Below are positions 10,048 through 46,378 of a DNA stretch of 49,093 nucleotides, piece after piece. Every line of letters begins with the position of its first letter. The first letter of the stretch is position 1. Position numbers and translations under genes: made by a program. The DNA is from a virus. Where the stretch lies: the IMG/VR virus record IMGVR_UViG_3300034094_000316, positions 1 to 49,093 of that record; one strand, written 5' to 3'. The notes under the pieces are model-generated. The model saw only the letters and a program-made list of their open reading frames with translations, was not told the origin of the DNA and searched no databases.

Positions 10048-10400
10048 TGGTCAAGTATCACCTCCCCTATCCGCCAAGCGTGAATAACTATTGGCGGCAC
10101 GTTGGAGCAAGGACGCTCATCTCACGTCGGGGGCGAGCATTTCGAACGGCTGTTTGCACTATTCTTGCGTCGCAAGGTGTAACGACATTGGTTGGTCCTT
10201 TGGTTGTCGATGTCGTCGTCCATCCTCCTGATCGGAGGCGCAGGGACGTAGACAACTGTCTTAAAAGCCTCCTTGATGCTCTGCAACACGGAGGCGCATA
10301 CCGAGACGACTGTCAGATCGTAAGGCTGTCGATCGAAAAGCGGAAACCCATCAAAGATGGACTTACCATCGTTCAAATCCAAGAGGTCAATCATCAATGA
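10047..10400 (+). CDS. rusA: RusA-type Holliday junction resolvase
   Basis: The ATG at 10047 overlaps the preceding stop (TGATG arrangement), giving 117 residues, the normal RusA length. The N-terminal YPPSVNNYW motif is the classical RusA signature. The metal-binding acidic residues are D67 and D69 in RRRDVDNCLKSLLDALQ and D88 in AYRDDCQIVRLSIEKR, equivalent to the catalytic aspartates of the E. coli enzyme. RusA dimers cut four-way junctions made during phage recombination and branched replication. The gene lies between the DUF669 protein and the helicase, with overlaps on both sides, which ties it to recombination-dependent replication. Confidence 0.93.
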   Translation: MVKYHLPYPPSVNNYWRHVGARTLISRRGRAFRTAVCTILASQGVTTLVGPLVVDVVVHPPDRRRRDVDNCLKSLLDALQHGGAYRDDCQIVRLSIEKRKPIKDGLTIVQIQEVNHQ

Positions 10401-17570: not shown

Positions 17571-17891
17571 TTACAGTTTTTGGCACTGCCACGTTTGGTT
17601 TTGGAAAACATACAGGTAGTTCGCATCGCAGTTGCGAGCGAACTCCAGCAGAGATCGGTTATCGCAAAGGTGCTTTGGGGGCCGAGCGCGAGCCAAGTGC
17701 TCCGGGCCACCGGCCTCGGAGGTCAAGCTCCGAAGCTCACCACCGGCCAAAAGCGCCGAAACTTTTTCGTTGGAGTTGAAACGTTGATTAAGAATCACGC
17801 CTGCGAATTCTGGATAACCATCGTAGTGCAGGTACGTTGCCTGGAACGTCCCGTCCTCGTTAGCACATGCGATCGTTGCTCGTGTGGACAT
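17571..17891 (-). CDS. Conserved phage-type small protein (MSTRATI family)
   Basis: The N-terminus MSTRATIACANEDGTFQATY, followed by LHYDGYPEFAGVIL, is a pattern I know from many phage and plasmid hypothetical proteins. They share the start MSTRA-I and an H-x-DGYP motif near residue 25. The 106-residue length fits. The function is unknown. It is soluble, with a single Cys in the middle and a Cys near the end. It is the last gene of the block of minus-strand genes that interrupts the plus-strand prophage genes, and its stop faces the methyltransferase stop only three bases away, a tight convergent junction. The ATG has AAAGGTAC seven bases upstream. Confidence 0.75.
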   Translation of the reverse strand: MSTRATIACANEDGTFQATYLHYDGYPEFAGVILNQRFNSNEKVSALLAGGELRSLTSEAGGPEHLARARPPKHLCDNRSLLEFARNCDANYLYVFQNQTWQCQKL

Positions 17892-17909
17892 AGCTGTACC
17901 TTTATCGGG

Positions 17910-18122
17910 TTAGGTTACGTCGGAACTAAGAATCTCGATGCAGTCGTCGGGCAACGTGAGCATCAATCGCCGACCGTTGTCCCAATCGACCTCGACCTGA
18001 GTCCATCCATCGTGGGGGTGGATCGCACGAACGGTGCCGAGCGATCCGGAGGGAACCGGATCAATATCTTCGGGCATGTGGATCAGTCGGATTCGATCTC
18101 CGACTTTGGGTGCATCGATCAT
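17910..18122 (-). CDS. DUF4314 family protein
   Basis: The 70-residue protein reads VGDRIRLIHMPEDIDPVPSG, then GTVRAIHPHDGWTQVEVDWD and NGRRLMLTLPDDCIEIL. This is the DUF4314 pattern: a small SH3-like beta barrel with a conserved D-P-x-P-x-G-x-x-G-T-V turn and V-D-W-D-N-G-R-x-L. DUF4314 proteins occur in phages and conjugative elements, and their function is unknown. The ATG is preceded by GAAAGGAAC. The gene is separated from its neighbours by 18 bases on each side, so the three genes 18392-17571 probably form one message. Confidence 0.85.
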   Translation of the reverse strand: MIDAPKVGDRIRLIHMPEDIDPVPSGSLGTVRAIHPHDGWTQVEVDWDNGRRLMLTLPDDCIEILSSDVT

Positions 18123-18140
18123 GGTTGCGGTTCCTTTCGT

Positions 18141-18392
18141 TTAGAGGATCTTGCCCAGGAGGCTTTTCTTCATCGCGTCGATCGCTTCGCAAGCCAGGAG
18201 GTGTTCGGTAAGGAGCGGGCCGGCGGTCTGCGGTTGTTGTGCGTCGGCGATCTCGAGGAGCTCGGCCAAGGCGTGGATCCCTTCGATCGCTTTGTAGTAG
18301 GACTCGCGGATCTCTTGGGCTTGGTGTGGGTCCATCGTGCGGAAGGCGTCGCGAAGGATTTTTTCGTTAGCTTGTTTTTCTGCGGTGGTCAT
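18141..18392 (-). CDS. Hypothetical helical protein, 83 aa
   Basis: An in-frame extension upstream exists, but the ATG at 18392 has GGAG at a good distance and starts a normal sequence, MTTAEKQANEKILRDAFRTM. The remainder is predicted helical (AQEIRESYYKAIEGIHALAE, then LLTEHLLACEAIDAMKKSLL). No family is recognised. Its leader shares a conserved sequence block with two other genes of the same island, suggesting its own promoter. It starts the short 18392-17571 run with the DUF4314 and MSTRATI-type genes. Confidence 0.65.
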   Translation of the reverse strand: MTTAEKQANEKILRDAFRTMDPHQAQEIRESYYKAIEGIHALAELLEIADAQQPQTAGPLLTEHLLACEAIDAMKKSLLGKIL

Positions 18393-18436
18393 CTTCGTTT
18401 CTCCGTGTTTGCGTTGGGGGTTTCGTTTGGCGTTAC
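18393..18436 (-). promoter_or_regulatory. Conserved leader, copy 1
   Basis: On the minus strand AACGCCAAACGAAA (complement of 18421-18434) stands 28 bases before the ATG at 18392, followed by CACGGAGAAACGAAG up to the ATG. The same arrangement recurs before the genes starting at 20069 and, less exactly, 21566. The distal block may be an operator or part of a promoter. The proximal block is an extended ribosome site. Confidence 0.5.
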
Positions 18437-18638
18437 AACACATTTCCCATGCGTTGGGCAGGAAGTAAAGGCGTTGTGGAGAGTAATGTTTTGGATTCTC
18501 AGAGAATGTTTTCGAGCCCCGCAAACGCCACAGTTTAGCACCGGTCGAGTCGTTTTGGACCTTGGGGTAACTAGGCCACCTAACGAGAAAACGCCCACAC
18601 GTGGCAAACGTGGGGCGCTGTCGCCAAATCGACCCGGG

Positions 18639-18878
18639 TTATCGCCGGAGCCAATTCCGAATCGTCTTCAGTTCGTACCTGCCCAATCCCGAGACCGCAT
18701 AGTCTTGGCCGTTATTCCCGCGGGCGATCAATCGATCCCCACGGCGCTCGACGTACTGGACCGTGGTATCGAGCGACGGATCGTCTTCGGATTGGATCAG
18801 GTACGAATGGTCGGCATCGGGGTAAATCCGCTGGCCGTCGGCAAGGTCGCTTACCAAATGGATTTGTCCGATGTGCAT
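18639..18878 (-). CDS. Hypothetical protein, 79 aa
   Basis: The sequence MHIGQIHLVSDLADGQRIYP continues with a beta-rich middle (TTVQYVERRGDRLIARGNNG) and a basic end (LGRYELKTIRNWLRR). No family is recognised. The alternating hydrophobic pattern suggests a small beta barrel, perhaps related in fold to the DUF4314 neighbour. The start is one base after the stop of the preceding gene (18880-19074), so the two are coupled. About 246 bases separate it from the next minus-strand gene, where the conserved leader lies. Confidence 0.6.
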   Translation of the reverse strand: MHIGQIHLVSDLADGQRIYPDADHSYLIQSEDDPSLDTTVQYVERRGDRLIARGNNGQDYAVSGLGRYELKTIRNWLRR

Positions 18879-18879
18879 G

Positions 18880-19074
18880 CTAGCTCTCCGTGGTCGGCGT
18901 GGTCTGGTCGTGGTTGGGTAGTGGTGGATCTAGCTCTTCGGCGATCGAGAGCAGGATCTCGGCAAGGTGGTTGGCGTAGATGCAAGCCACCTTGCCCGAT
19001 TCAAAAGCCTCATCGAGTCGCAGCGCGACCTTTCGCATCGCATCTGCGACTCGGTAATTCGGATCGGCGCTCAC
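18880..19074 (-). CDS. Hypothetical helical protein, 64 aa
   Basis: The short acidic/amphipathic protein contains YRVADAMRKVALRLDEAFES and ANHLAEILLSIAEELDPPLP, two probable helices. A polar Thr/Ser tail follows. Its ATG overlaps the stop of the HARE-HTH gene (ATGA type), a strong sign that it is a real gene translated from the same message. No family is recognised, and a regulatory partner of the HARE-HTH protein is possible. Confidence 0.6.
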   Translation of the reverse strand: MSADPNYRVADAMRKVALRLDEAFESGKVACIYANHLAEILLSIAEELDPPLPNHDQTTPTTES

Positions 19075-19652
19075 TGGGCCACCTCGGCAGTCGCGCTAGC
19101 GGCTACGAACCTGCCCCGATCAGTCTTTACGAATCGAGAAGCCTCCCCCTTGGCCAACTCTCGAAGGATCGCGCTGTAGAGAGTCGCGTGGGGTGTCTTG
19201 CCACCGGGGCTTGTCCAGTATCCCTTGGAGGTCATCGCCTCGATCATCTGCTGGACGTTAAGCGGCTCGGTCGCTTCGCACAAAACCTTGTGGGCGGCAG
19301 CCAAGGCACTCAGGCGTTTGGGTTCCTGGCCCTCGGTCTTCTTGGCGACCCGCTTGGTCTCTTGTCCCTCAGCGCTCTTGGCCGATCGCTTCGCCTTGAG
19401 GGGAATAATGTCGGGGTTTGCATCGGTGGGCGTTTCAGCTTGCGAATCGCTTTGGGTTTTCGTAGTCGGTTTGCCTTTGCCGACCTCTCCGTGCAATCGC
19501 TGGGCGGTTCGAATGACGATCTTCTTGCCGGTAGCAAGGTTGGTGGCGAACCATCCACCACCAGCCTTCTCGCTATCGATCTTGACTTCGACCTTCTTGC
19601 CGGTGACGTTCGCATAGTACTTGCCACCGATCGTAATCTCTGCCTTTTTCAT
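19071..19652 (-). CDS. HARE-HTH domain protein with N-terminal KOW/SH3-like segment
   Basis: The 193-residue protein has three parts. Residues 1-55 (EITIGGKYYANVTGKKVEVK, then GGGWFATNLATGKKIVIRTA) look like a small beta barrel. Residues 60-115 are a disordered Lys/Thr/Ala-rich linker. Residues 115-190 are a HARE-HTH winged helix: LSALAAAHKVLCEATEPLNV, QQMIEAMTSKGYWTSPGGKT, PHATLYSAILRELAKGEASR, and a final wing FVKTDRGRFVAA. HARE-HTH domains occur in the RNA polymerase delta subunit and in restriction/modification and chromatin-type proteins, where they bind DNA and may sense modified bases. In this prophage a link with the neighbouring methyltransferase is tempting but unproven. Confidence 0.82.
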   Translation of the reverse strand: MKKAEITIGGKYYANVTGKKVEVKIDSEKAGGGWFATNLATGKKIVIRTAQRLHGEVGKGKPTTKTQSDSQAETPTDANPDIIPLKAKRSAKSAEGQETKRVAKKTEGQEPKRLSALAAAHKVLCEATEPLNVQQMIEAMTSKGYWTSPGGKTPHATLYSAILRELAKGEASRFVKTDRGRFVAASATAEVAQ

Positions 19653-19742
19653 CTATCTGTCTCCAATGTTGGAACCGTGGTTAGCTGCCATCGTCAGGTC
19701 GCCCGCACTACCGAGCGACGATCCCGATACCGGGATTTCGGT

Positions 19743-20069
19743 TTAGGTTCCCCAGACCAAGTCGGCCAATCCAACCCCAAGGAAATCAACCACCACCTGG
19801 ACCTCGGTGGTCGCTGCGGGTACATCCAGCCCGCGGTCGAAGTTGAAAAGGGTCTTTTTGGTTTGGATGTCTTGAATCCAGAGCTTCGAGATCTTGGTGC
19901 GTCCGAGTTCGTAGTCTTCGCTCTCGGCGTGCTCGGCAAAGACCAGGGCTTCGAACCGAACCGCGTCGTTGATCTTGCCTCGTACCCAAGCCCCTCCGCT
20001 GGAGGTTCGTTTTTCGATCTTGGTGATTACCAGGTCGAGGTCCGTTACGTCGATCTTTTCGTTGGCCAT
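19743..20069 (-). CDS. Hypothetical protein, 108 aa
   Basis: The ATG at 20069 follows GGAGAAAC, and the upstream in-frame extension belongs to the leader. The protein MANEKIDVTDLDLVITKIEK continues with WVRGKINDAVRFEALVFAEH and ISKLWIQDIQTKKTLFNFDR, a beta-rich domain. The Trp-x-Arg-Gly-Lys-x-Asn box is distinctive. It resembles uncharacterised proteins of other prophages and mobile elements in composition, but I cannot name a family. No Cys or membrane segment is present. It lies between the HARE-HTH gene and an acidic small gene, each separated by about 90-145 bases, and has its own conserved leader. Confidence 0.65.
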   Translation of the reverse strand: MANEKIDVTDLDLVITKIEKRTSSGGAWVRGKINDAVRFEALVFAEHAESEDYELGRTKISKLWIQDIQTKKTLFNFDRGLDVPAATTEVQVVVDFLGVGLADLVWGT

Positions 20070-20115
20070 GTTTGTTTCTCCGTTTGGGAAAAGGTGGTTT
20101 TTCGTTTGGCGTATG
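20070..20115 (-). promoter_or_regulatory. Conserved leader, copy 2
   Basis: On the minus strand TACGCCAAACGAAA (complement of 20100-20113) lies 30 bases before the ATG at 20069, followed by CCCAAACGGAGAAACAAAC. Thirteen of the 14 distal positions and most of the proximal purine-rich block match copy 1 at 18393-18436. Confidence 0.5.
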
Positions 20116-20213
20116 ACAAACATTGCAATGGTCGCAAAACAATTGCAACTCGGTTATGCGATATTCTGGCAGTAATTTTGCAGCTTTTGAAAAATCATTT
20201 GAAGCACCGAAAA

Positions 20214-20492
20214 TTAATTGCCACGCGCTACGTCCCAAGCGCGCTTGGTTCCGTATCCCAGCTGCTGGCCTTCGACGATAAAGAGCACCGAATCCTCGGC
20301 CGCATCGTCGCTGTCATCGTCGTCGTCCCCGTCTTGGTCATCGTGATAGTCGTTGATCTCGGCCCCGGAGGCCAACCCGTAGATCGAGTTCTCAAAGGGC
20401 CAGTTCTGCTGGGTCATCAACCGGACCTGGGCATCGCCACCGATCTCATCGCGGTAGTCTTCCAGTCGTGCAATCAATTCGTCGATCGTCAT
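20214..20492 (-). CDS. Phage-type hypothetical protein with acidic tail, 92 aa
   Basis: The N-terminus MTIDELIARLEDYRDEIGGD, followed by AQVRLMTQQNWPFENSIYGL, is a pattern I have seen in many phage hypothetical proteins (helix, then G-D-A-x-V-R-L-x-x-Q-x-x-W-P). A run of about 17 mostly Asp residues (about 52-68) precedes a final strand SVLFIVEGQQLGYGTKRAW. Acidic runs of this type can mimic DNA or bind basic partners, so an anti-restriction role could be imagined. Nothing more supports it. A GGAG site precedes the ATG. Confidence 0.7.
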   Translation of the reverse strand: MTIDELIARLEDYRDEIGGDAQVRLMTQQNWPFENSIYGLASGAEINDYHDDQDGDDDDDSDDAAEDSVLFIVEGQQLGYGTKRAWDVARGN

Positions 20493-20708
20493 GGTCTGTT
20501 CTCCATAGATTTGGAAATAGGTTCAAAACAAAGGGTCGCTAGACATCAGTACATCCAGCACAAAGACATCAATACGGTTCCGGTAAGAAAATCAAATAAC
20601 CCAGTCATGCCAGAGAGCTGGTTTGCAAACACAACGCACCAATCGCGCCGTGTTGCGACCGGCCAGCGACCCTTGGGGTTTGTCCCAAGGGTCTTGCCCG
20701 CTAGGCCC
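20493..20708. other. Spacer between two minus-strand island genes
   Basis: About 216 bases without gene or clear motif. GACCCTTGGGGTTTGTCCCAAGGGTC, at about 20669-20694, contains GACCCTTGGG and CCCAAGGGTC arms: a perfect 10-bp stem with a 6-base loop. It stands just after the stop of the amidoligase gene and is a plausible transcription stop for it. Confidence 0.5.
20669..20694 (-). terminator. Probable terminator hairpin after the amidoligase gene
   Basis: GACCCTTGGG and CCCAAGGGTC are perfectly complementary around a short GTTTGT loop, 14 bases past the amidoligase stop on the minus strand. A T-tract is not evident on the minus strand, so factor dependence is possible. Confidence 0.5.
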
Positions 20709-21566
20709 TTAGGCCGCTTGGTCGTATTTCTTGGCCATCTCCAAAAGCTTGTTCTTGATCGTTTTCCATTCGCGGGTGGTCTCGCCGGTGATCTCGCCGA
20801 AGATCTTGCTTCGAAGCTCTCCCTTGTACCAACCCTTGGTCCATCCGAGCCGGTAGAAAAGGCGGTTGAGTTCTGTCTCGCCCAGGCCAGCCCCGGGTCG
20901 ATCCCAGCAGCTCTTGGTTCCGTCTTTCTTGGCGTAGTCCCAATCGGCGCATCGTTTGGTATTCATCGCGAGCTCTGCCAACCCCAGGACCATCATCAGG
21001 TATCCGACCACCTTGGTCTTGTTGAGCGTTCCGGCGAAAGCCCGAAATTCGATCCGGTTCTTACCGGCTGCCAGGTGGGTGAGGTTCAAAAGGTGGTAGC
21101 GATCCGCTTCGCATCGGTTCTTAGCGGCGTCTTTGTCCCCGTATTGTTTGATCCGTTTGGTGTAGACCGTTTGTTCTCGCCGGCGTGTTCCGGTGCTTGC
21201 GAAAATCGCTTTTTCGTGGTTGCCGACCAAGGAAATCAATCTGGCCAAGGCGGCTGCATCCCCATTCCATTCGATCGTTATGTGCAAACCGCAGGTTGCA
21301 TTGACCCTCGCTCCGTGTTCGTTGATCTTGTCGATCGCGTCTTCGATCTGTTTGAGGCCTTCGTATCCCTTGAGCTTGGGGCTTACGAATTCGCATCCCT
21401 TGCGGTTGGGGGTTTCTGGTTTGATGCTCGCGTCGCGTTCTGCTCTCCATCCGGTGGGGAGCCAAGGTACTTGGTATCCGTGGTGGTATGGTCCGATCGG
21501 TGTGGTGTCGCTGTTTGGGAGGGTGGTCTCGAATTCAATTCCGAAGGCGATCTCGTTAGCGTTCAT
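20709..21566 (-). CDS. Putative amidoligase (COOH-NH2 ligase family)
   Basis: The ATG at 21566 begins MNANEIAFGIEFETTLP. The FGIEFE motif right after the start is the family signature, so the 14-residue upstream extension is rejected. The product has 285 residues. Further family blocks are ERDASIKPE (substrate loop), CGLHITIEWNGDAAALARLI, RYHLLNLTHL and NRIEFRAFAGTLNKTKVVGY. Amidoligase_2 proteins are glutamine-synthetase-fold enzymes predicted to form amide bonds, used by phages and mobile elements perhaps to modify proteins, peptides or cell-wall components. All visible motifs are intact. It is the largest gene of the reverse-strand island, transcribed divergently from the late operon. The substrate is unknown. 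Confidence 0.85.
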   Translation of the reverse strand: MNANEIAFGIEFETTLPNSDTTPIGPYHHGYQVPWLPTGWRAERDASIKPETPNRKGCEFVSPKLKGYEGLKQIEDAIDKINEHGARVNATCGLHITIEWNGDAAALARLISLVGNHEKAIFASTGTRRREQTVYTKRIKQYGDKDAAKNRCEADRYHLLNLTHLAAGKNRIEFRAFAGTLNKTKVVGYLMMVLGLAELAMNTKRCADWDYAKKDGTKSCWDRPGAGLGETELNRLFYRLGWTKGWYKGELRSKIFGEITGETTREWKTIKNKLLEMAKKYDQAA

Positions 21567-21840
21567 CTGCGTCTTTCCGTTTGGTTTGGGTTGGTCTGTC
21601 GTTTGCAATCGCCATTGCGTTTGCGTGTTGACATTGAGCCATGCGGTTCGGATTCAATCCAGCTATCTATGGAAGAAAAGCATGTTATTTGGCAAACTTT
21701 ATTGGCATGCGAACCAACGCCACGGCTTGCAATAACACGCATGCGAAATCACCTTGCCCAAGGGGCCGAACGTCAAAAGAAAACACGCCGGTGGGCCCCG
21801 TGTGGGCCACGGTGCCAATCCTCTACGAAGGGAGCCTGGC
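21567..21840. promoter_or_regulatory. Divergent promoter region: amidoligase (-) and late operon (+)
   Basis: About 275 bases must hold the promoter of the head genes and that of the island. On the plus strand a perfect TTGACA (21628-21633) is followed after 17 bases by GATTCA (21651-21656), a weak -10. On the minus strand a third, looser copy of the conserved leader ends before 21566 (CAAACGACAGACC, then CAAACGGAAAGACGCAG). If the phage sigma factor controls late genes, a non-standard promoter should lie here. Confidence 0.4.
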
Positions 21841-22047
21841 ATGAGTGATGAAAAAAAACCGATCGATCCGAACCGACTAACCCCCGAGCAAGCGGCCAAA
21901 CTCCTCTCGGCAGCGGCCAAGATCCGGATCCCCGAGGAAAACATCGTGCTGGACATCGAAAGCGGTGCTCCAACAAACCAAGATGGATCAATCAACTTGG
22001 TCCACTACATCGCATGGATGGTAAAGGAGATGGGCCGTGGTGAGTGA
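21841..22047 (+). CDS. Small protein upstream of terminase, 68 aa
   Basis: The ATG at 21841 has GAAGGGAG upstream. An in-frame extension to 21754 is rejected on that ground. The product MSDEKKPIDPNRLTPEQAAK is followed by ILVLDIESG-type and INLVHYIAWMVKEMGRGE segments. It is the first gene of the late operon and overlaps the large terminase by eleven bases. Such a position is normally occupied by a small terminase or DNA-packaging regulator, but 68 residues is short and I see no certain HTH. Planctomycete prophages seem to carry a similar small protein here. Confidence 0.65.
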   Translation: MSDEKKPIDPNRLTPEQAAKLLSAAAKIRIPEENIVLDIESGAPTNQDGSINLVHYIAWMVKEMGRGE

Positions 22048-35981: not shown

Positions 35982-36773
35982 ATGGTCGAACCAGTAATAA
36001 TCGAACGCTTCGATTCCAAAGAAGCGACCGAGAGCAAAGACGGTCCGACTCATGATCTTGTCTACATGATCATGAATACCGAGCAGTACTCTGTGGCCAA
36101 GAACCTCATGGCATCGGCGGTACCCGATAAAGTCGGTGACTTGTTCTTGGATGACTACCACATCGTCCACTTAGGCAACGGCGTTTGGGAAGGGACCGCT
36201 CATTATGTCAAATGGAAAAGCGAGTCGCAGTATTCGTTTGACACCGGAGGCGGCACCCAGCACGTTACCCAAAGCATCGTCAATGTTGGTAAGTATGCTG
36301 CCACTGGATTCACCGCACCAGATTTCATGGGCGCGATTGGGGTAACGGACGATCGCGTAGAAGGCACCGACATCACCGTTCCGGTTTTTAATTTCACCGA
36401 GACGCACTATATCGAAAAAGCCCTTGTCACTGGTGCGTACAAGCTCGCGCTGTTTAACCTCACGGGCAAAGTCAACGGCTCAGGATTTAAGGGGTTTGCC
36501 AAAGGAGAAGTGCTGTTCCTCGGAGCAAGTGGATCGAAGCGTGGTCTGGACGATTGGGAGATCACGTTTCGATTCGCTGCCAGTCCCAACGTCGTGGGAT
36601 TATCACTGGGAAGTATAACTGGAATATCCAAAGAGGGCTGGCAGTACCTTTGGGTTCGCTTCATTGATGACGAGGATCCCACCGCTAAGGCGCTAATCAA
36701 ACGACCCGTCTCTGCCTACGTCGAGCAAGTCTATTCCTACGGTGACTTCAGTAACCTTGGGATCGGAGTCTAA
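35982..36773 (+). CDS. Distal tail-like protein, 263 aa
   Basis: TAGGAG lies at normal distance before the ATG. The protein reads MVEPVIIERFDSKEATESKD, then DLFLDDYHIVHLGNGVWEGT, HYVKWKSESQYSFDTGGGTQ and, near the end, WQYLWVRFIDDEDPTAKALI. It is beta-rich with no membrane segment. Its place directly after the tape measure fits the distal tail or baseplate hub protein, but sequence similarity to Dit proteins is not visible by eye. In planctomycete prophages I recall comparable proteins in this place. Confidence 0.7.
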   Translation: MVEPVIIERFDSKEATESKDGPTHDLVYMIMNTEQYSVAKNLMASAVPDKVGDLFLDDYHIVHLGNGVWEGTAHYVKWKSESQYSFDTGGGTQHVTQSIVNVGKYAATGFTAPDFMGAIGVTDDRVEGTDITVPVFNFTETHYIEKALVTGAYKLALFNLTGKVNGSGFKGFAKGEVLFLGASGSKRGLDDWEITFRFAASPNVVGLSLGSITGISKEGWQYLWVRFIDDEDPTAKALIKRPVSAYVEQVYSYGDFSNLGIGV

Positions 36774-36776
36774 TCG

Positions 36777-37448
36777 ATGGGAGACAAGTTCCATAAGGTG
36801 ATGCCAGGCGATCCACTGAAGATTCCAGCAGAGGCGTGGAATGCTTTAGTGGATCTGTCCCAAGCACAAAAGAACCAGCAGCATGACCTGCTGAGTCAGG
36901 TCGAAGGAACTTCCAGACAAAACAATCTGGCCAAGGTGCGAAACCAAACGGGTATCGATTTAGATCGATTCGCGATCGTTGCACTCGGGACTCCGATCAT
37001 CACACCCGCTGCGAACCTCAGGGAGTTTAAACGACAAACCAGCTTTCAAGGGCTAGTTCCGGGAGCTACTTCCGGATCGCGGTTTGGGGTGCTGCTTGAA
37101 CCACTCAAAAACAACACCATCGGCACCGCAGCAGTCGCAGGATGCGTAATCGCCAGAGTGGCTGTCGGGCTGACTGCTTACAACTGCGCAGAAACACTTT
37201 CTGGTCAAACCGGCTATCTGCGAAGTGTTCCGCATGGGCCAGCCTCGGTGCTTTGGATCGAAGACTCGGGGGAAGTGCGATGGGCGGTCATTCGCTTTGA
37301 TGATGCCAATTACGAAGAGATCGTCTTTATCACAAGCAACATTCCCGACGGAAATGGCTACTACCCCGGAGTGGTTCAGAAGTTCGACGTAACGACCAAG
37401 TCGTGGAACACGGCCTTTGATTGCAAAGTGGTGGATGCCAACAAATGA
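36777..37448 (+). CDS. Virion-associated hypothetical protein, 223 aa
   Basis: The ATG follows GGAGTCTAATCG, only three bases after the previous stop. MGDKFHKVMPGDPLKIPAEA and WNALVDLSQAQKNQQHDLLS begin the protein, followed by beta segments (IDLDRFAIVALGTPIITPAA, then SRFGVLLEPLKNNTIGTAAV). The opening phrase PGDPLxIPAxAWN is seen in other phage structural proteins of planctomycete-type elements. It probably forms part of the tail tip. The final base pair of the stop overlaps the next ATG. Confidence 0.68.
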   Translation: MGDKFHKVMPGDPLKIPAEAWNALVDLSQAQKNQQHDLLSQVEGTSRQNNLAKVRNQTGIDLDRFAIVALGTPIITPAANLREFKRQTSFQGLVPGATSGSRFGVLLEPLKNNTIGTAAVAGCVIARVAVGLTAYNCAETLSGQTGYLRSVPHGPASVLWIEDSGEVRWAVIRFDDANYEEIVFITSNIPDGNGYYPGVVQKFDVTTKSWNTAFDCKVVDANK

Positions 37449-39064
37449 CACTCTACCCACGTCGATACATCGCAACCTTCATCGCCGGTACCCAGGAGTC
37501 GTTACCACTCTATGCAGCCACTTGCACCGAAAAGCGCTCCGGGCAAGGTCCAAAGCGTCAACTTGGTTTTTTCATTGGCATCATTAACGGAGAGCCATTG
37601 TATGCAGTTTCTAGTTGTGAATTCCCTCAGATGGGCCGTTACCTTATGCACTATGTGGGGTTTGACGTGCTGCCCATTTATGCAATCGTCTGTTGTGAGG
37701 TATCCTCAAGCGGATCATCCGGCAGTAGCGGTTCGTCGGGCTCATCAGGTTCCTCTGGATCGGCGAGCTCAAGTGGCTCGTCAGGTTCTTCGGGTTCAAG
37801 CGGCTCCTCGGGATCGAGCGGTGGCAGTGGATCATCCGGATCCGGCACTCCTCCTGGATCCAACGGAAGCTCCGGTTCCTCCGGCTCAAGCGGGAGCTCA
37901 GGGTCCAGCGGATACTCCGGATCCAGTGGCTCGTCTGGTAGCAGTGGATCATCCGGCTCGAGTGGCTCATCGGGAAGCTCCGGATCAAGCGGTAGCTCTG
38001 GCTCGTCGGGTTCGAGCGGGTCCTCTGGTAGCTCCGGGACTTCAGGAAGCTCTGGGAGTTCTGGAAGCTCTGGATCATCGGGAGCATCTAGTTCCAGTGG
38101 GACATCCGGCCAATCAAGTGGGATTGGATCATCGGGATCCAGCGGATCAGGTTCTAAGCCTTCAGGCTCGTCTGGCTCATCCGGATCGAGCGGTGCGAGT
38201 GGATCGGCAGGCTCATCGGGTGGCTCGACCTCAAGTGGCACATCGGGCACGATTGGATCGGGTAGTTCGAGTTCGAGCGGGTCGTCTGGGTCATCTGGCT
38301 CAAGCGGTAGCGCTGGGTCCAGTGGATCGAGCGAATCAAGAGGATCCTCAGGCTCATCCGGATCAAAACCTTCAGGTAGTAGCGGCTCGGGTTCCCAGCC
38401 ATCCGGCTCGCAAGGTAGCTCTGGATCATCTAGCGGATCGGGTTCAGGCGGAACGTCAGGTTCCAGTGGATCATCAGGTTCCAGTGGTTCCGTGGGATCA
38501 AGTGGGACCTCCGGACAGAGCGGATCCGTTGGTTCAAGCGGCACGAGCGGCTCGAGTGGATCAAGCAGTTCCTCTGGCTCTTCAGGATCGAAACCATCTG
38601 GTTCAAGCGGTTCAGGTGCACAGTCCGGTTCGCAAAGCGGCAGCAAGCCTTCGGGTTCTGGTTCTTCAGGGCAAAGCTCTAGTGGTTCGGTATCTGGATC
38701 CGGTTCTGGTTCCGGCTCTGGAATAAAGCCTTCGGGAGGCTCAGGCAGTGGCGCTAGCTCAAGCGGCATTGGTTCAAGCGGATCTGGTAGCTCCGGGAGT
38801 TCAGGCAGTTCCGGTAGCTCTGGTCAATCGTCCGGATCGAGTGGGTCGGGATCAAGCGGCTCAGGCTCGAGCGGCAATTGCTGTTGTCCTTGTTACTACG
38901 TCTGGAACGGCCTTGGCTGGAATCCTGTGAGTGTGCCAGATCCTTGCAGAGAGCAAAACGGACCATTCGAAGCGACCTGCTTTTGTGCGGGGTTGGCACC
39001 AGGCACGCCAGGAACATTTATCGGAGAAGTCAGATACACCGGTTGTCAGGAGATATTTTCATGA
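37445..39064 (+). CDS. Ser/Gly-repeat tail fibre-like protein, 539 aa
   Basis: The ATG at 37445 overlaps the previous stop (ATGA). Three parts are visible. Residues 1-86 hold three related short repeats ending in YA and Cys: ESLPLYAATC, GEPLYAVSSC and DVLPIYAIVCC. Residues 87-477 are an uninterrupted Ser/Gly tract built on Ser-Ser-Gly, with rare Ala, Thr, Gln, Lys and Pro. Residues 478-539 form a Cys-rich cap starting NCCCPCYYVWNGLGWNPVSV, with PCREQNGPFEATCFCAG and GTFIGEVRYTGCQEIF. The tract could be a long flexible or glycosylated stalk presenting the cap as receptor-binding end. The following overlapping glycosyltransferase and methyltransferase genes fit a glycosylated stalk. The order after the distal tail genes suits a fibre. 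Function is inferred from architecture. Confidence 0.8.
   Translation: MTLYPRRYIATFIAGTQESLPLYAATCTEKRSGQGPKRQLGFFIGIINGEPLYAVSSCEFPQMGRYLMHYVGFDVLPIYAIVCCEVSSSGSSGSSGSSGSSGSSGSASSSGSSGSSGSSGSSGSSGGSGSSGSGTPPGSNGSSGSSGSSGSSGSSGYSGSSGSSGSSGSSGSSGSSGSSGSSGSSGSSGSSGSSGSSGTSGSSGSSGSSGSSGASSSSGTSGQSSGIGSSGSSGSGSKPSGSSGSSGSSGASGSAGSSGGSTSSGTSGTIGSGSSSSSGSSGSSGSSGSAGSSGSSESRGSSGSSGSKPSGSSGSGSQPSGSQGSSGSSSGSGSGGTSGSSGSSGSSGSVGSSGTSGQSGSVGSSGTSGSSGSSSSSGSSGSKPSGSSGSGAQSGSQSGSKPSGSGSSGQSSSGSVSGSGSGSGSGIKPSGGSGSGASSSGIGSSGSGSSGSSGSSGSSGQSSGSSGSGSSGSGSSGNCCCPCYYVWNGLGWNPVSVPDPCREQNGPFEATCFCAGLAPGTPGTFIGEVRYTGCQEIFS
37703..38875 (+). repeat. Ser-Ser-Gly coding repeat, 1173 bases
   Basis: The bases encode 391 residues of Ser/Gly repeat. 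The DNA units use many synonymous codons (TCA, TCC, TCG, AGC, AGT; GGC, GGA, GGT, GGG) so that no long exact tandem array is visible at DNA level, although GGATCATC, GGCTCATC and GTTCAAGCGG recur frequently. Confidence 0.9.
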
Positions 39065-39597
39065 TGAACGATCCGACCGATTGTCAGTACAACGAATATG
39101 GATACTGCAAGATCTCAAGCGATCTTGCCAAGGCACCTGTTCCTATCGCAAGCGATGCGTGCGCAGCATGTGTGCAGCAGACTCGGCCACGCACCAAGAA
39201 TTCAGTTACCTGCTCAAAGGCGATCGAGTATCTCTCCATCGTGCAGATACCGATTCCCCAGGATCTACTCGAGTGCGTCAAGCCTCCTACGCAAGGTGTG
39301 GGGACGGAACTGGAAACCCTCATCGCAAAGACTCGCAAGTTCCTCAGTTGGTTTTGCCTAGCTTGGATCATTCCAACTGGCTTTACCTGTGGGTGTCATT
39401 CCACCAAAAGGCGCATGAATGAGCTGGGACCTCGGCTCTGCACTCGAGATGGCGACGAGCTATCTGCTGAGATCCTCAAGCATTGGATCCTCCATGTGCC
39501 AATGATTCGATTCATTCCGTTTGTTCTGACCATTATCGGACTGTACATCCTCCGCGCATCCTACATCGCCGAATCCAAGGAGAAATTCAATGGCTAA
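39061..39597 (+). CDS. Cys-rich protein with C-terminal membrane segment
   Basis: The gene begins with ATGATG overlapping the fibre stop, CAGGAGAT lying upstream. Its 178 residues contain about twelve Cys: DCQYNEYGYCKISSDLAKAP, CAACVQQ, VTCSKAI, LLECVK, WFCLAW and FTCGCH. A hydrophobic stretch FIPFVLTIIGLYILRASYIA occurs near the C-terminus, and another, weaker one (FLSWFCLAWIIPTGFTC) near the middle. It is placed between the fibre and the glycosyltransferase, overlapping both. It could bind iron-sulphur or zinc and anchor the modifying enzymes, or be a chaperone of the Cys-rich fibre cap. No family is recognised. Confidence 0.72.
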   Translation: MMNDPTDCQYNEYGYCKISSDLAKAPVPIASDACAACVQQTRPRTKNSVTCSKAIEYLSIVQIPIPQDLLECVKPPTQGVGTELETLIAKTRKFLSWFCLAWIIPTGFTCGCHSTKRRMNELGPRLCTRDGDELSAEILKHWILHVPMIRFIPFVLTIIGLYILRASYIAESKEKFNG

Positions 39598-41584
39598 TTG
39601 CAATCAAGCTACCCCCGACCTGACTCCCGAAGCGATGCTTGAGTTGATCAAGCAGTGCCCACCCGGACCTTGGCCCAACGCCTGGGGCACCTGGGACAAC
39701 ACGATCGAAGCCCATCGGCGATTGGTGGACCAGTATGTCGATAATCTGATGCCCAGCCGAGTGACCTATGCTCAGGAGCGTGGGATCGTCATCGCCGGGG
39801 GAGGACTCAAGTATTTCCCGAGCGTTTGGGTCAACGTGAATCTGCTTCGGCACTTCGGCTGCACGCTACCGATCCAGCTTTGGTATTTGGGTGACTCCGA
39901 GATGGATCCCTACATGAAACGATTGCTTGAGCCACTGGGCGTCGAGTGCATCGATGCCAGGGACATCGAGAAACAGCACCCATGCCGAATCCTATGTGGC
40001 TGGGAGCTGAAACTCTACGCGACGCTCCACTCACCGTTTGCCCAGGTGCTATTCCTGGACGCCGACAATGGGGTCGTGTGCGATCCAACGTACTTGTTCG
40101 ACTGTGAGGAGTACAAACGCCACGGCGCGATTTTCTGGCCAGACTACGCGTGCTGGACGTTGAAGCCTGGCGTCTGGAAAGTCTTCGGGATGATGGACAT
40201 GGCCGAACCCGAAGTGTCTGAGCACGAACGAGCCTTTGAGTCCGGGCAGTACCTCATCGACAAGCGACGGTGCGATCGCGAGTTGCGATTGTCTTTGTTC
40301 TACGCGGAGCATTCGGACTTCACGTTCCAGCATGTGTATGGCGACAAAGAGTGCTTTCACCTGGGTTGGCGACGACTCGGTTACGATTACGCGATGCCCA
40401 GCGCCGGTCCTGGTTGGAATGTCCACACGATCGTGCAGTTCGACTTCCGAGGTCAGATCGTCTTCCAGCATCGATGTCAGGACAAGTGGCGATTCGGAGG
40501 AAACCGGTTCGTGGACTCGCTGGCCAATGAAGAACTCTGCTTCCAGCTCGTCCGCGATCTGGCCAGCAAATGGAGTGGCAACCTTTGGAAGAACGAGGCA
40601 CCGACAACCATGGAAACCGAAACGATCGAACAGCTCATTAACACTCGCGTACTTTACCGACGGGTGGGTTACGACCAGCGCGTGATCAAGCTCGGGCCCA
40701 ACCGCGAAGTCATCGAAGGTGCTGCCGAGTGCGAACGCCTCTGGCACGTCAACCACGTCGATGGCCAGCCTGTGCTGACACTTGCCCGACTCGATCGACC
40801 AACGTGCCACCTGCGTCGCGACTACGAAGGGATCTGGCGTGGATCGTGGCTGGAATACGAGCGGATGCCAATCGAAGTCATTCCCGAAGTGGAGTGGAAA
40901 CCAACGGTCGATGCGATCGATCCGACCCAGTCGCGACTGCTAATCACGGTGGCTACCGGAGAATCGTTCCGCGAACTGCTCCGGTACACTGGCCCACTGA
41001 TGGAAGCCTACGCCAAACGGATCGGTGCTGATTTCGTGGCGATCACCAAGCCATCGCAGAACTGGTGGGGACTCGAAAAGTTCCGGGTGCAGCCGTTCGC
41101 TCAGTCCTACGAACGCACCCTCTACGTCGATGCCGATGTGTTCTTGACCGAAGAGACGCCGGATCTATTCGATGTCGTTCCTACGGGCCACGTGTCGATG
41201 CACGATGATTGGAGTCTATTGCCAAGCTTTGAGTGGGTATTTGAGGAGCGTCGCAATATCCTCGAATCGCAGCAACTCCCGATGGACGACAGCAAGGTGG
41301 TTCTCAATAGCGGGATCGTGATGTGCGATCGCAAGCACGCGTCGATTTGGAAACCACCGATGCATCCATTCTTTCCAACCCACTGCTCCGAGCAATTCTG
41401 GATCCAGAACAACGCTCGCGGGCTTCCATTCTTCCAACTGCCGACCGAATTCAACACCCAGTACTGGATGCCCAAGTTCCGAGAGTTGGTGCCGACGGCC
41501 AAGGTGATCCACTTGGCCAACTGCACGCCAGAGAAACGGCTCGAATTTGCTCGCCAGTTCACTTCATCCCTTGCGACTGCTTAG
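39590..41584 (+). CDS. Two-domain glycosyltransferase
   Basis: The 664-residue protein carries two GT-A-like domains. Domain 1 (about 60-330) includes RGIVIAGGGLKYFPSVWVNV, LPIQLWYLGDSEMDPYM and QVLFLDADNGVV with the DxD D157-A-D159. The pattern resembles Mnn1/GT71-like mannosyltransferases. Domain 2 (about 440-650) has LLITVATGESFRELLRYTGP and TLYVDADVFLTEETPDLFD (DxD D514/D516), then VVLNSGIVMCDR, as in GT8-like enzymes. Both metal-binding pairs are intact. There is no signal peptide, so it acts in the cytoplasm with nucleotide-sugars. It overlaps the Cys-rich gene by eight bases. A likely acceptor is the Ser-rich fibre made two genes upstream, although wall glycan or teichoic-like polymers cannot be excluded. 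Confidence 0.85.
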   Translation: MANCNQATPDLTPEAMLELIKQCPPGPWPNAWGTWDNTIEAHRRLVDQYVDNLMPSRVTYAQERGIVIAGGGLKYFPSVWVNVNLLRHFGCTLPIQLWYLGDSEMDPYMKRLLEPLGVECIDARDIEKQHPCRILCGWELKLYATLHSPFAQVLFLDADNGVVCDPTYLFDCEEYKRHGAIFWPDYACWTLKPGVWKVFGMMDMAEPEVSEHERAFESGQYLIDKRRCDRELRLSLFYAEHSDFTFQHVYGDKECFHLGWRRLGYDYAMPSAGPGWNVHTIVQFDFRGQIVFQHRCQDKWRFGGNRFVDSLANEELCFQLVRDLASKWSGNLWKNEAPTTMETETIEQLINTRVLYRRVGYDQRVIKLGPNREVIEGAAECERLWHVNHVDGQPVLTLARLDRPTCHLRRDYEGIWRGSWLEYERMPIEVIPEVEWKPTVDAIDPTQSRLLITVATGESFRELLRYTGPLMEAYAKRIGADFVAITKPSQNWWGLEKFRVQPFAQSYERTLYVDADVFLTEETPDLFDVVPTGHVSMHDDWSLLPSFEWVFEERRNILESQQLPMDDSKVVLNSGIVMCDRKHASIWKPPMHPFFPTHCSEQFWIQNNARGLPFFQLPTEFNTQYWMPKFRELVPTAKVIHLANCTPEKRLEFARQFTSSLATA

Positions 41585-41600
41585 TCCACGAAAGGATTGC

Positions 41601-42302
41601 ATGATGACCAACTCCGTTTGCTACAAAATCTATGGGCAGGACTTCCACATCGAACCCGAGAGTGTGCAGTTTGCCAACGCGGTGTTCCATGACGAGTACC
41701 GCATCAACGATTTGCGTTCCCACAACGTCCGCACGATTGTCGATGTTGGCTCGCACGTGGGGAGCTTTACCGTGATGGCCCACCACTATTGGCCCAACGC
41801 CAAGATCGTCGCAGTCGAACCTCATCCGCAGAGCTTCGAGCTGATGACAAAGAACACCAGTCACATTCCAGACTCGCAGTTGCTGCGGATCAACGCAGCG
41901 ATTTCGTCCAAGCCTGGAAAGTGCTTACTATCGTTCCCGGTCTCGAACTCTCGGGTTGCCGACTATGTTCCTGACGTTTGGGAATCGCTAGAGCCACGGT
42001 ACCGAGATTTCGGCATCGAAGTTCCATCTCTGACCGTCGAGCAGTTCTGGACGCAAGTAACGGACTTCGGGATCGACGAGGTCGACTTGATCAAGCTCGA
42101 TTGCGAAGGGGCCGAGTACTTGATCGTCTCCGAGCTATCGGCTTTAGGTCTAATGGACCGCATAGGCTGGATCCGTGGCGAGTGGCACAGCCGCAAGGAC
42201 AATGTTTTGTTGGGCAGCTGCCTTGGCCAAACCCATGCGTACAACATCGACCCGAATCTGCCGCATGCGGTGGGGATGTTTGTGGCGCATCGGATTTCGT
42301 AG
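41601..42302 (+). CDS. FkbM family methyltransferase
   Basis: The ATG at 41601 (or 41604) follows GAAAGGATTGC, 16 bases after the glycosyltransferase stop. The 233-residue protein shows the SAM fold: RTIVDVGSHVGSFTVMAHHY (motif I), KIVAVEPHPQSFELMTKN (motif II) and DLIKLDCEGAEYLIVSELSA (the conserved D-x-E-G-x-E block). FkbM enzymes O-methylate hydroxyls on sugars or polyketides and are frequent beside glycosyltransferases. Here the natural substrate would be the sugar put on by the two-domain enzyme. It is the last gene of the prophage late operon. Length and motifs are complete. Confidence 0.9.
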   Translation: MMTNSVCYKIYGQDFHIEPESVQFANAVFHDEYRINDLRSHNVRTIVDVGSHVGSFTVMAHHYWPNAKIVAVEPHPQSFELMTKNTSHIPDSQLLRINAAISSKPGKCLLSFPVSNSRVADYVPDVWESLEPRYRDFGIEVPSLTVEQFWTQVTDFGIDEVDLIKLDCEGAEYLIVSELSALGLMDRIGWIRGEWHSRKDNVLLGSCLGQTHAYNIDPNLPHAVGMFVAHRIS

Positions 42303-43451: not shown

Positions 43452-44432
43452 ATGAACAAGCTACTGCGATTGTTTTTGGTGTTTTTTCTGGTGTTCCCAC
43501 CCCAAACCGCCCACGCGTGGTCTGAGGGTGGTCACCATTTGATTGCAGCCATCGCTTTCAACTTACTGACCGATCAGGAGCGAATCGAACTTTTGGATGT
43601 GCTCAAGCAGCACCCAAGGTTCGCAGAGGATTTCGTCCCACCGGACAAGCTTGCAAATGACGAGGAGCGAACGCGCTGGCTCGTTGGGCGTGCTGGCTAT
43701 TGGCCAGACGTAGCACGCAAGCAACCCAAATACCACCGATCGACTTGGCACTACGAGCTCGGGCCGACGATCGTGTTAGGCAAGTCGGACGGGATCGCAG
43801 TTCCCGAGAGACCCGGATCGCTACCCTTGGATGCGACCTTGGAGACCCAGGATCTATACCTCTCCCAGGCGGTTGAACTCTGCCGCAAAGTGCTCTCCGA
43901 CAAATCCCAACCTCCCGGAGACCGAGCGATCGCACTTTGCTGGATTGGGCACCTTGTCGCTGATGCGCACCAACCGTGCCACGCCGGAAGTCTTTACATG
44001 GAAAAAGTTTTTGTGAAAAAAGACGGAGACCGGGGGGCCAACAGTATCCCGACCAAACAGCGCCAGAACATGCACGCCCTTTGGGATCAGCTCCTTGGAG
44101 ACGAATTCGCACAACGAACAAACCGGCGTCGATTTGCCGAGATCACATCGAGCCCGCAACTGACCGAGATCGGTAAGATCTCGGTGTCGATCCCGGGCGG
44201 TTTGGATCCGCTGGTCTGGCTTGGCGAGAGTCGAAAAGCAGCGATTGAGAACGTCTACGCTCCGGAAGTCTTGGATTCGCTGAGCATCGTATCGCGCGGG
44301 ATCGCTGAGAAGCCAGAGACAATAGAACTCTCTGAGTCCTACCTGAAGAACGCAGGAAGGGTTGCCCAAGTACGGGCCGTAGAGGCGGCGCATAGGTTAG
44401 CAGGAGTTTGGAAGAACTGCATGAACAATTGA
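43452..44432 (+). CDS. Secreted S1/P1 family nuclease
   Basis: The 326-residue protein has a signal peptide MNKLLRLFLVFFLVFPPQTA, with cleavage after AHA, so that the mature chain begins with Trp (WSEGGHHLIAAIA). This is required because the amino-terminal Trp binds one of the three zinc ions in S1/P1 enzymes. Other zinc ligands lie in HYELG, CWIGHLVADAHQPCHAG, GDRGAN and NMHALWDQLL. Such enzymes cut single-stranded DNA and RNA and remove 3'-phosphates in the periplasm or outside the cell. Length and motif order are normal. In this planctomycete setting the role is probably phosphate or nucleotide scavenging. It lies outside the prophage. Confidence 0.92.
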   Translation: MNKLLRLFLVFFLVFPPQTAHAWSEGGHHLIAAIAFNLLTDQERIELLDVLKQHPRFAEDFVPPDKLANDEERTRWLVGRAGYWPDVARKQPKYHRSTWHYELGPTIVLGKSDGIAVPERPGSLPLDATLETQDLYLSQAVELCRKVLSDKSQPPGDRAIALCWIGHLVADAHQPCHAGSLYMEKVFVKKDGDRGANSIPTKQRQNMHALWDQLLGDEFAQRTNRRRFAEITSSPQLTEIGKISVSIPGGLDPLVWLGESRKAAIENVYAPEVLDSLSIVSRGIAEKPETIELSESYLKNAGRVAQVRAVEAAHRLAGVWKNCMNN

Positions 44433-44634: not shown

Positions 44635-45486
44635 ATGGCGAAGAAGCAAACGATTGGAGCGGTTACGATACTCACTGGCGACAGTCGAAAAGTTCTAAAC
44701 TCAATCGACACGGGCGTGGTTCAGAGTTGCATAACATCTCCGCCCTACTGGGGATTAAGGGACTACGACCATGAAGACCAAATAGGTTCTGAACCATCGC
44801 CGGAAATCTATGTAGAAAATCTTGTCGAGACATTTCGTCAGGTGCGACGCGTACTGAAGGATGACGGAACACTTTGGCTCAACGTTGGAGATGGATACGC
44901 AAGAAACGGTGGCGATGGTAATTGCGGGCCCAATGCAAAGGTTGGTAATACTAAGAAGCTAATTCAAAAACGAAATTGCAAGGTTCCCGACGTATGGGGC
45001 CTCAAGGATCGTGATTTGATGGGTATGCCTTGGCGGGTGGCGTTCGCATTGCAGGCTGACGGATGGATATTAAGATCACGCATAGTCTGGATAAAAAAGA
45101 CTGCAATGCCTGAGAGCGTCCGCAATCGACCAACGAGTGCTACGGAAGAACTTTTTCTCTTTGCAAAGCAACCTGCGTACTACTATGATCACCAGGCAAT
45201 TCGCGAGGAGAGCGGCGCAAACCTAAGGAACTATTGGATACTCGGACCTGACATTTCAGGTAAAGGACATCCCGCTACTTTTCCACGCGAACTGGCTAGA
45301 CGTTGCATACTTCTAGGAACTCGGACCAATGACATCGTGTTGGATCCCTTTGGCGGTTCAGGAACCACCGGCGCGGTAGCCAAAGAAGAAGGTCGCCAAG
45401 CTTTTCTCGTTGAACTCAACCCTGATTACAACGAACTCGCGAAGCAGCGACTGAAGAACGTTACTCGCAAATTTGAGCTCACCTAG
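44635..45486 (+). CDS. Type II DNA methyltransferase (beta class, probably N4-cytosine)
   Basis: A GAGGAG site lies six bases before the ATG. The 283-residue protein carries the catalytic TSPPYWGLRDY near residue 34, a form typical of N4-cytosine enzymes (Ser-Pro-Pro-Tyr). The SAM-binding DPFGGSGTTGAVAKEEG comes near the end, which is the beta-class order. The last part AFLVELNPDYNELAKQRL is the usual C-terminal helix. It ends eight bases inside the convergent endonuclease gene, so this pair forms a restriction-modification unit. The methylated sequence should match the NaeI-type site of its partner, but this is deduced, not seen. Confidence 0.9.
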   Translation: MAKKQTIGAVTILTGDSRKVLNSIDTGVVQSCITSPPYWGLRDYDHEDQIGSEPSPEIYVENLVETFRQVRRVLKDDGTLWLNVGDGYARNGGDGNCGPNAKVGNTKKLIQKRNCKVPDVWGLKDRDLMGMPWRVAFALQADGWILRSRIVWIKKTAMPESVRNRPTSATEELFLFAKQPAYYYDHQAIREESGANLRNYWILGPDISGKGHPATFPRELARRCILLGTRTNDIVLDPFGGSGTTGAVAKEEGRQAFLVELNPDYNELAKQRLKNVTRKFELT

Positions 45487-46378
45487 TGTGTGGGCAATCA
45501 GGCGCTGGAACTATGGGATCGCTCGCATTCGCTACCCGCCAGTAGCCAGCCCCCAGTCGTACGACGCCGTCCCCAGGTTTTGTTGCAGGAGCGATTCTAA
45601 CGCTCACAGACTCTCCGCGATTAGGAATCGGTACTCCGAGTCCCTTTGCGATGCTTTTATGTTCTTCGTAGTGCCCGAGGATGATTATACCTTCGGACTT
45701 TAATCGAGATCTCGACCCTCCGTTGCCTCTTACTCGCTTCATGTAGTCTTCTTGTTGACCTAGCGTTGCGATAACGCCTCTTCCGATTCGCTGGCATTGG
45801 GCGATACGAAAAATCTGATCTATACGCTGTTGACCACTTGGAAGTAACATAAGTTTTTCTACCACGCTTCTGGGTAGTTGAAGCAATATATTTGGTGGTA
45901 ACTGTGCATCTCTAAATATCCAACGAATGCTTTCGCGACCGGCGGCAGTGATTGTTCTCTTGCTATCCCGATTACCACCCCGTGTGAGAATATCATCCGA
46001 GATTCGAACAACACCTATGCTCCAAATCGACTGCTGATCTTCCGCCCAAATTACAAGACATAGATGCCCCATGGCTTCGTTGGGAATCATCCATCCGCCC
46101 ATTGTTTGGGAGTACTTGCAATCCACATCGACGCCGCCAATCCTATAATCCATCGTCTCTCCGTCATCGAATTGAAATTCTCGATGAAGATTGATCTCGA
46201 TGAGTGTTCCACAGTGAGTCTTTTCAGTTTTATGCAATTGATCCCAGCGATAACGGCCTGTATGCTGCCCGTCATAAAGCTGGTCAAGCGTCTGTCGAAT
46301 CACCATTCCAATTCGCTCTCCAGTCGGATCGAACGCATGGATGGCGTCGGCAACGATCTTTAGCTCTTCATCGTCCAT
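45479..46378 (-). CDS. NaeI-like type II restriction endonuclease
   Basis: The 299-residue protein follows NaeI closely. TLDQLYDGQHTGRYRWDQLH leads into the endonuclease core HKTEKTHCGTLIEINLHREF, and DYRIGGVDVDCKYSQTMGGW carries the active-site residues. E61, D77, D86 and K88 are exactly nine positions from E70, D86, D95 and K97 of NaeI. L34 corresponds to NaeI Leu43. The C-terminal half has the second DNA-binding (CAP-like) domain that binds an effector copy of the site (LPRSVVEKLMLLPSGQQRID, then GRGVIATLGQQEDYMKRVRG). NaeI cuts GCCGGC as a type IIE enzyme; the site of this protein is inferred to be the same or close. The gene is convergent with the methyltransferase and overlaps it by eight bases. 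Confidence 0.92.
   Translation of the reverse strand: MDDEELKIVADAIHAFDPTGERIGMVIRQTLDQLYDGQHTGRYRWDQLHKTEKTHCGTLIEINLHREFQFDDGETMDYRIGGVDVDCKYSQTMGGWMIPNEAMGHLCLVIWAEDQQSIWSIGVVRISDDILTRGGNRDSKRTITAAGRESIRWIFRDAQLPPNILLQLPRSVVEKLMLLPSGQQRIDQIFRIAQCQRIGRGVIATLGQQEDYMKRVRGNGGSRSRLKSEGIIILGHYEEHKSIAKGLGVPIPNRGESVSVRIAPATKPGDGVVRLGAGYWRVANASDPIVPAPDCPHTR

Follow-up and report, generated by a model that had tools for sequence, protein, structure and literature searches.

Does a tailed phage that encodes glycosyltransferases (GTs) directly downstream of a serine-rich tail protein decorate its own virion with sugars? This question is raised by IMG/VR record IMGVR_UViG_3300034094_000316, a single contig of 49,093 bases that was analyzed whole (hereafter, the window). 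At 37445-42302, an earlier note made from the sequence had described a tail-position protein with a 391-residue Ser/Gly stalk, a Cys-rich protein, a fused double GT, and an FkbM methyltransferase, and had proposed that the enzymes modify the stalk. The genes, their overlaps, and the 16-base gap before the methyltransferase gene were all confirmed at these positions. Judging from the comparison with related tail modules, we consider it probable (about 70%) that the adjacent enzymes glycosylate and O-methylate the Ser-rich virion stalk in the cytosol.

The window carries a siphovirus-like genome with a terminase, portal, fused protease/capsid, major tail protein, and tape measure, and the virus is assigned to Planctomycetota bacteria as hosts. 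Because a large serine recombinase is encoded on the 49 kb contig, the phage is regarded as temperate-like; the earlier note had spoken of a prophage, and integration is not shown by the contig. On the plus strand, the tape measure gene is followed by T36 (35982..36773), a conserved tail protein kept in all related tail modules that were aligned; T37 (36777..37448), identified by alignments as a tail/fiber-anchor protein; the Ser/Gly fiber (SSG, 37445..39064); a small Cys-rich protein (39061..39597); the GT (39590..41584); and FkbM (41601..42302, with an ATG start at 41601). T37 and SSG overlap by ATGA, SSG and the Cys-rich gene also overlap, the Cys-rich and GT genes share 8 bases, and 16 bases separate GT from FkbM. 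In other phages, the T37 domain continues straight into a fused Ser-rich stalk, a collagen segment, or a different fiber module. Structure prediction and fold search gave no significant match for T36, and comparison of T37 with solved structures gave no meaningful one. SSG was placed at the tail tip because of the gene order and the modular fiber architecture, the T36 structure search not being informative.

Serine-rich stalks and glycosyltransferases across the tail family

Related loci (designated by L numbers) were gathered through T37, an upstream tail gene whose choice depends on neither stalk nor GT, so the search favored neither. Loci ending before any GT could start were excluded. The fair count was 42 stalk-positive loci; a table of 48/48 adds the window and five loci found through the GT. 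An adjacent downstream GT was present in 42/42 Ser-stalk loci, compared with 4/36 stalk-less loci. After clustering of T37 at 50% identity, the GT was found in 7/7 stalk-positive and 1/10 stalk-negative clusters (p=4e-4). FkbM followed the GT in all 34 of the 34 contigs with at least 0.8 kb of downstream DNA. The co-occurrence among relatives that the earlier note had proposed to look for was thus borne out.

Three arrangements were distinguished. Class 1 loci have a separate SSG fiber and a PF11051-like GT-A. In class 2, the Ser stalk is fused to T37, with a GT-B (PF00534) directly downstream in 13/13 loci and a GT2 additionally in 10/13. Class 3 loci lack a Ser stalk, and an adjacent GT was detected in only four of the 36 (L107, L125, L159, and L176); all four are GT2 enzymes in one clade, and a Pfam scan of the class 3 neighbors brought up no further noteworthy GT family. 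In L107 (8001-12025), T37 bears a true GPQ-type collagen stalk and is followed by an overlapping GT2 and methyltransferase fusion. L159 and L176 have a Tyr/Gly-rich insert (GYGSYGYDYGYGYYY) at T37 residues about 165-180, with the GT2 gene directly downstream; this insert is possibly another kind of glycan acceptor. The same slot is therefore occupied by a GT-A beside separate stalks, a GT-B beside T37-fused stalks, and a GT2 beside the collagen stalk. From these gene arrangements, the pairing of stalks with unrelated GTs has the appearance of a genuine strategy that evolved more than once.

In the T37 tree, four class 2 loci (fused stalk and GT-B) nested within the class 1 clade (SSG and GT-A) with 98% support in the Shimodaira-Hasegawa-like approximate likelihood ratio test, indicating that stalk type and GT family changed together. 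L093 was considered as a candidate stalk without a GT and was not counted, since stalk and GT are cut off at one and the same break. At 8666-10601 of this locus, only the first SSG repeat is present before the contig passes into a prepilin-like open reading frame (ORF) of planctomycete type. Such ORFs are common in planctomycete chromosomes, and the break may be a host junction or a rearrangement.

The stalk and its adjacent enzymes

SSG comprises N-terminal repeats, the stalk, and a Cys-rich C-terminal tip. Its N-terminal 86 residues consist of three copies of an 'RRYLARFVG..GVPLYALGC'-like unit that is conserved in relatives. The C-terminus is swapped for other types among relatives and is therefore read as an exchangeable tip. 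The stalk has the length that the earlier note gave it, 391 residues, with 217 Ser and 126 Gly. Its Ser residues draw on all six codons (TCA 47, AGC 41, TCG 39, TCC 38, AGT 26, and TCT 26), and DNA identity at lag 9 was only 43%, the DNA periodicity being below that of the protein. These values argue that the stalk is not a DNA repeat artifact and that its composition is maintained at the protein level.

Both the Pfam Collagen match of SSG (PF01391, E=1.2e-14) and its PHROG tail-fiber matches arose from the stalk, and Gly-X-Y runs hold 252/391 stalk residues, whereas 1000 shuffles gave 79 on average and 144 at most. This strong periodicity, together with the classical collagen stalk of L107 beside its GT2 and methyltransferase fusion, would suit a genuine collagen-like triple helix whose helical structure is the conserved function, with the enzymes acting as collagen glycosylation factors like BclA/SgtA or mimivirus L230. 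However, the runs of the window (the longest of 26 triplets) are often interrupted and almost Pro-free. Gly-X-Y is also gone in L018, L019, L031, and L041 and in every T37-fused stalk, and the GTs are retained in all of these. Relatives instead show units such as SSGP (L031), SGSASGSGS (L041), and SGSSGESSG; the T37-fused stalks contain 39-60% Ser of the SSSSGSSSS type with no Gly phase, and L146 has only 4% Gly. The constant feature is Ser-richness. A strict collagen reading was rejected on these grounds, and we regard a conserved triple helix as quite unlikely; since relatives lose Gly-X-Y yet keep Ser, a role in carrying glycans suits the stalk better.

The N-domain of the GT (39590..40885) matched PF11051 (GT71 / Mannosyl_trans3) with E=1.8e-31 and 109.9 bits against a curated cut-off of 22. 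Its DxD motif (D157/D159) and H294 were invariant in 20 homologs. The AlphaFold2 model was good (predicted local distance difference test, pLDDT, about 88), and Foldseek returned yeast alpha-1,3-mannosyltransferase MNT2 as the best match (E=5.6e-11), followed by glycogenin and UGGT. MNT2 extends Ser/Thr O-mannans. No membrane segment was found in the GT, which is consistent with a soluble GT-A enzyme. The ratio of nonsynonymous to synonymous substitutions was 0.04-0.16, indicating purifying selection. GT relatives occurred in only 3/392 Planctomycetota genomes, one of the three being the prophage used as search center; because of this rarity, we regard the GT as a phage gene rather than a host housekeeping gene.

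The C-domain (40886..41584) is a second, GT-A-like domain with weak GT8 and glycogenin similarity (PF01501 E=0.02, below the cut-off; PHROG 28746 E=4e-8), an intact DAD motif at 514/516, and the His of 'KVIHLANC'. Both DxD motifs described in the earlier note are thus present, and the fusion itself is confined to the window, L003-L007, L035, L036, and a few fragments. In the majority of homologs, for example L008 and L050, there is only one GT, so a double GT was rejected as a defining feature, and the addition of sugars twice, as the note had it, would be specific to this lineage. A homolog of the second domain, with VDGD for VDAD, was also observed in an unrelated phage (L032, 5744-8864), directly after a Cys-rich fiber-like gene and before an ORF that resembles a sulfotransferase by eye and has no Pfam match.

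FkbM, an S-adenosylmethionine methyltransferase, scored above the cut-offs of PF05050 (5e-11) and TIGR01444 (70.9 bits against 37.7), in agreement with the earlier assignment; from its family, the enzyme likely O-methylates a sugar. The small Cys-rich protein is present in only part of the lineage and appears accessory. It had been described as carrying a membrane segment; its Cys-richness is evident, but the Kyte-Doolittle maximum of 2.09 in the window falls to 1.2-1.4 in several homologs, and a membrane role was rejected because the hydrophobic segment is not conserved. Its motif C-G-C-x6-7-MN-x2-G-x3-C (more loosely, CxC..MN/D..G..C) begins at 39388 in the window and reads 'CECDAYATEMDLWGTIGCYERRDAIIRHL' in L134 (7522-8004), which suggests a small conserved module, possibly metal-binding. 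As far as the genes reveal, the conserved core is the stalk, one GT, and FkbM, and the second GT domain and Cys-rich protein are lineage-specific extras.

Exchange of enzyme sets and the role of a proposed stalk glycan

Between the window and L050/L051, protein identity is 97-99% over the stretch that begins with the tape measure, includes SSG, and ends with the Cys-rich protein, but it is 85% for the GT N-domain and 70% for FkbM; the second GT domain is missing from L050/L051. The pattern is reversed for L003, L005, and L035, which share 91-99% identity with the window in the GT domains and FkbM and only 60-79% in SSG and the Cys-rich protein. The change falls at the Cys/GT junction, where DNA identity to L050 drops from 94% to 88% and then to about 70-73%, whereas that to L005 rises from 74% to 97%. 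A near-constant fiber is thus paired with two enzyme sets, as if its predicted glycan had been swapped.

Such near-identical fibers with different GT sets would also fit enzymes that alter planctomycete surface glycans, in lysogenic conversion or superinfection exclusion, and that adjoin the fiber through a shared role in host recognition. This is the customary reading of GTs in phage host-recognition islands; in pelagimyophages, for example, they were proposed as host-surface modifiers (PMC7029224). The serine recombinase, which suggests a temperate phage, points the same way. However, host-surface modification predicts no tie to Ser-rich stalks and is less favored for that reason: it leaves unexplained why a GT accompanies all 42 Ser stalks and is missing at the same position from 32/36 stalk-less loci, and why stalk type and GT family change jointly. 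A membrane segment is absent from the GT, and the ORFs that were scanned include no recognizable flippase or GtrA/GtrB-like gene. We consider this explanation unlikely.

Several observations weigh against modification of the stalk. In L125, L159, and L176, a GT is present although the Ser stalk is lacking. A GT-FkbM pair recurring without the stalk was the pattern that the earlier note named as contrary to its proposal; this pattern was rare, the only intact case being L040, for which the 0.77 kb available upstream contain no Ser stalk, in addition to degenerate remnants in L043, L047, and L049. Phylogenetically independent pairs numbered 2-4, all in the expected direction and too few for significance. 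Within the lineage, near-identical fibers occur with different GT sets, so that no strict match holds between enzyme and stalk. The family assignment of the GT C-domain is weak and its AlphaFold2 model poor. The module is known from sequences alone, namely metagenomic contigs, and isolate phages yielded no relative of T36, T37, the SSG N-domain, or the GT-B. Isolates gave only distant matches, one of 27% to the C-terminal GT region, from cyanophage S-CAM7, and two among methyltransferases; of the latter, MW202481 was the one inspected, and its gene context is not comparable. Among the carriers of the module, L035 and L036 are Pirellula-like metagenome-assembled genomes (MAGs), and L041 is an Isosphaeraceae MAG in which the module lies on a 4.8 Mb contig.

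The stalk is a candidate substrate, and L040 places a GT-FkbM pair outside a fiber context. The target of the GT might instead be phage DNA or a different virion protein, or the GT might be a hitchhiking accessory gene unlinked to the stalk. Against this stand the strict adjacency of the genes, the overlap of their frames, the purifying selection on the GT, and its co-occurrence with Ser stalks, and the PF11051-like and FkbM families act on proteins or sugars rather than on DNA. We regard it as very improbable.

Glycosylation of the stalk, our preferred reading, can be outlined as follows. SSG would be a tail fiber or tail-tip stalk built from a conserved N-terminal anchor, a long low-complexity Ser/Gly stalk, and a Cys-rich tip open to exchange. 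The soluble GT-A, co-expressed with it late in infection, would add a sugar to stalk Ser residues in the cytoplasm, using host nucleotide sugars as donor; the fused second GT domain would extend the glycan in the window lineage, and FkbM would O-methylate one of its sugars. The glycan may keep the flexible Ser-rich chain extended and protease-resistant, and may offer a surface whose variation serves attachment or counters recognition, roles close to the attachment or shielding of the earlier note. The sequences themselves establish how the genes are arranged and conserved, to which families the GT and methyltransferase belong, that Ser stalks go with adjacent GTs across the tail family, and that the cassette has been exchanged; we infer that the stalk is the acceptor, that a sugar is O-linked to Ser and then methylated, and that the modified stalk is present in virions and benefits the phage. 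A wider proposal is more tentative, and we put its odds a little short of even: that the window represents a widespread undescribed group of Planctomycetota tailed phages with O-glycosylated, O-methylated Ser-rich stalks, which recruited at least three unrelated GT families and recombine GT-FkbM cassettes under a constant fiber, as a phage counterpart of serotype switching.

Other features were observed elsewhere in the window. An S1/P1 nuclease with a signal-like N-terminus lies just downstream of the cassette (43452-44432). It is followed by a DNA methylase (PF01555, 44635-45486, plus strand) adjoining a NaeI-type restriction endonuclease (PF09126, E=7e-119, 45479-46378, minus strand), apparently a complete phage restriction-modification pair as judged from the domain matches. 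A type II hammerhead ribozyme (19679-19743, minus strand; 41.6 bits, E=3.4e-5, above the Rfam gathering score) is antisense to a 1422-residue ORF (17580-21848) without a Pfam or PHROG match. The ParB/DNA-methylase protein at 15370-17568 has about 290 extra residues between its methylase halves; this insert is a possible intein (Intein_splicing E=0.0099, below the cut-off).

Comparison with known glycosylation systems

Serine-rich repeat (SRR) adhesins with GtfA/GtfB and serine-aspartate repeat (SDR) adhesins with SdgA/SdgB have a Ser-rich stalk that is O-glycosylated by GTs encoded beside it (PMC3794999). The earlier note had applied this logic to the phage, and the functional parallel of a long Ser-rich stalk adjacent to GTs stands. 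The enzymes, in contrast, differ: the adhesins are Gram-positive surface proteins with GT4-type enzymes and accessory Sec (SecA2/SecY2) export and a cell-wall anchor, features that a phage tail module would not be expected to have, whereas the window GT is a PF11051-like GT-A without a Pfam or NCBIfam GtfA/GtfB match. A trace SdgA match (E=0.008) was seen in the class 2 GT-B of L105. The collagen-like glycoproteins of Clostridioides difficile (BclA3/SgtA, PMC7157674) and mimivirus (collagen with L230, PMC9614988) likewise combine a low-complexity, Gly-rich stalk with a dedicated GT; however, Gly-X-Y is not conserved in the phage family, the GTs differ, and no lysyl hydroxylase was recognized. 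Because the enzymes differ, we do not regard the phage system as a member of the SRR-adhesin or BclA systems, although it would work like them.

Chlorovirus PBCV-1 decorates a structural protein by means of fused GT domains and a sugar O-methyltransferase (A064R/A061L, PMC9614988). The window also has two fused GT domains and a predicted sugar O-methyltransferase, but the PBCV-1 product is an N-glycan on a eukaryotic-virus capsid protein and its methyltransferase is fused to the GTs. The likeness drawn here is one of architecture. Unlike Gtr O-antigen conversion cassettes, the phage module has a GT without a membrane segment, and its neighbors among the ORFs scanned are structural genes, the S1/P1 nuclease, or the DNA methylase.

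Phage virion glycosylation has been shown in few systems. As summarized in PMC12363180 from Freeman et al. 2023, GTs of mycobacteriophages Che8, Corndog, and Myrna glycosylate the phages' own structural proteins. Those phages and the window have a phage-encoded GT in common, here with a PF11051 match and an MNT2-like predicted fold. In the mycobacteriophages, capsid and tail-tube proteins are reported to be modified, whereas the Planctomycetota phages, known here from their genes, have a Ser-rich fiber stalk as candidate target and an FkbM enzyme. A literature search, limited for subscription papers, found no description of a stalk-GT-FkbM system. When a phage tail region encodes a lone GT, the enzyme is customarily taken to modify the host surface; a Ser-rich stalk directly upstream provides a criterion for predicting the virion itself as the target, and comparative genomics here provides a family-wide, testable link between stalk and GT. 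Virion glycosylation is known in other phages, and the stalk-GT-FkbM arrangement would add a variant to it.

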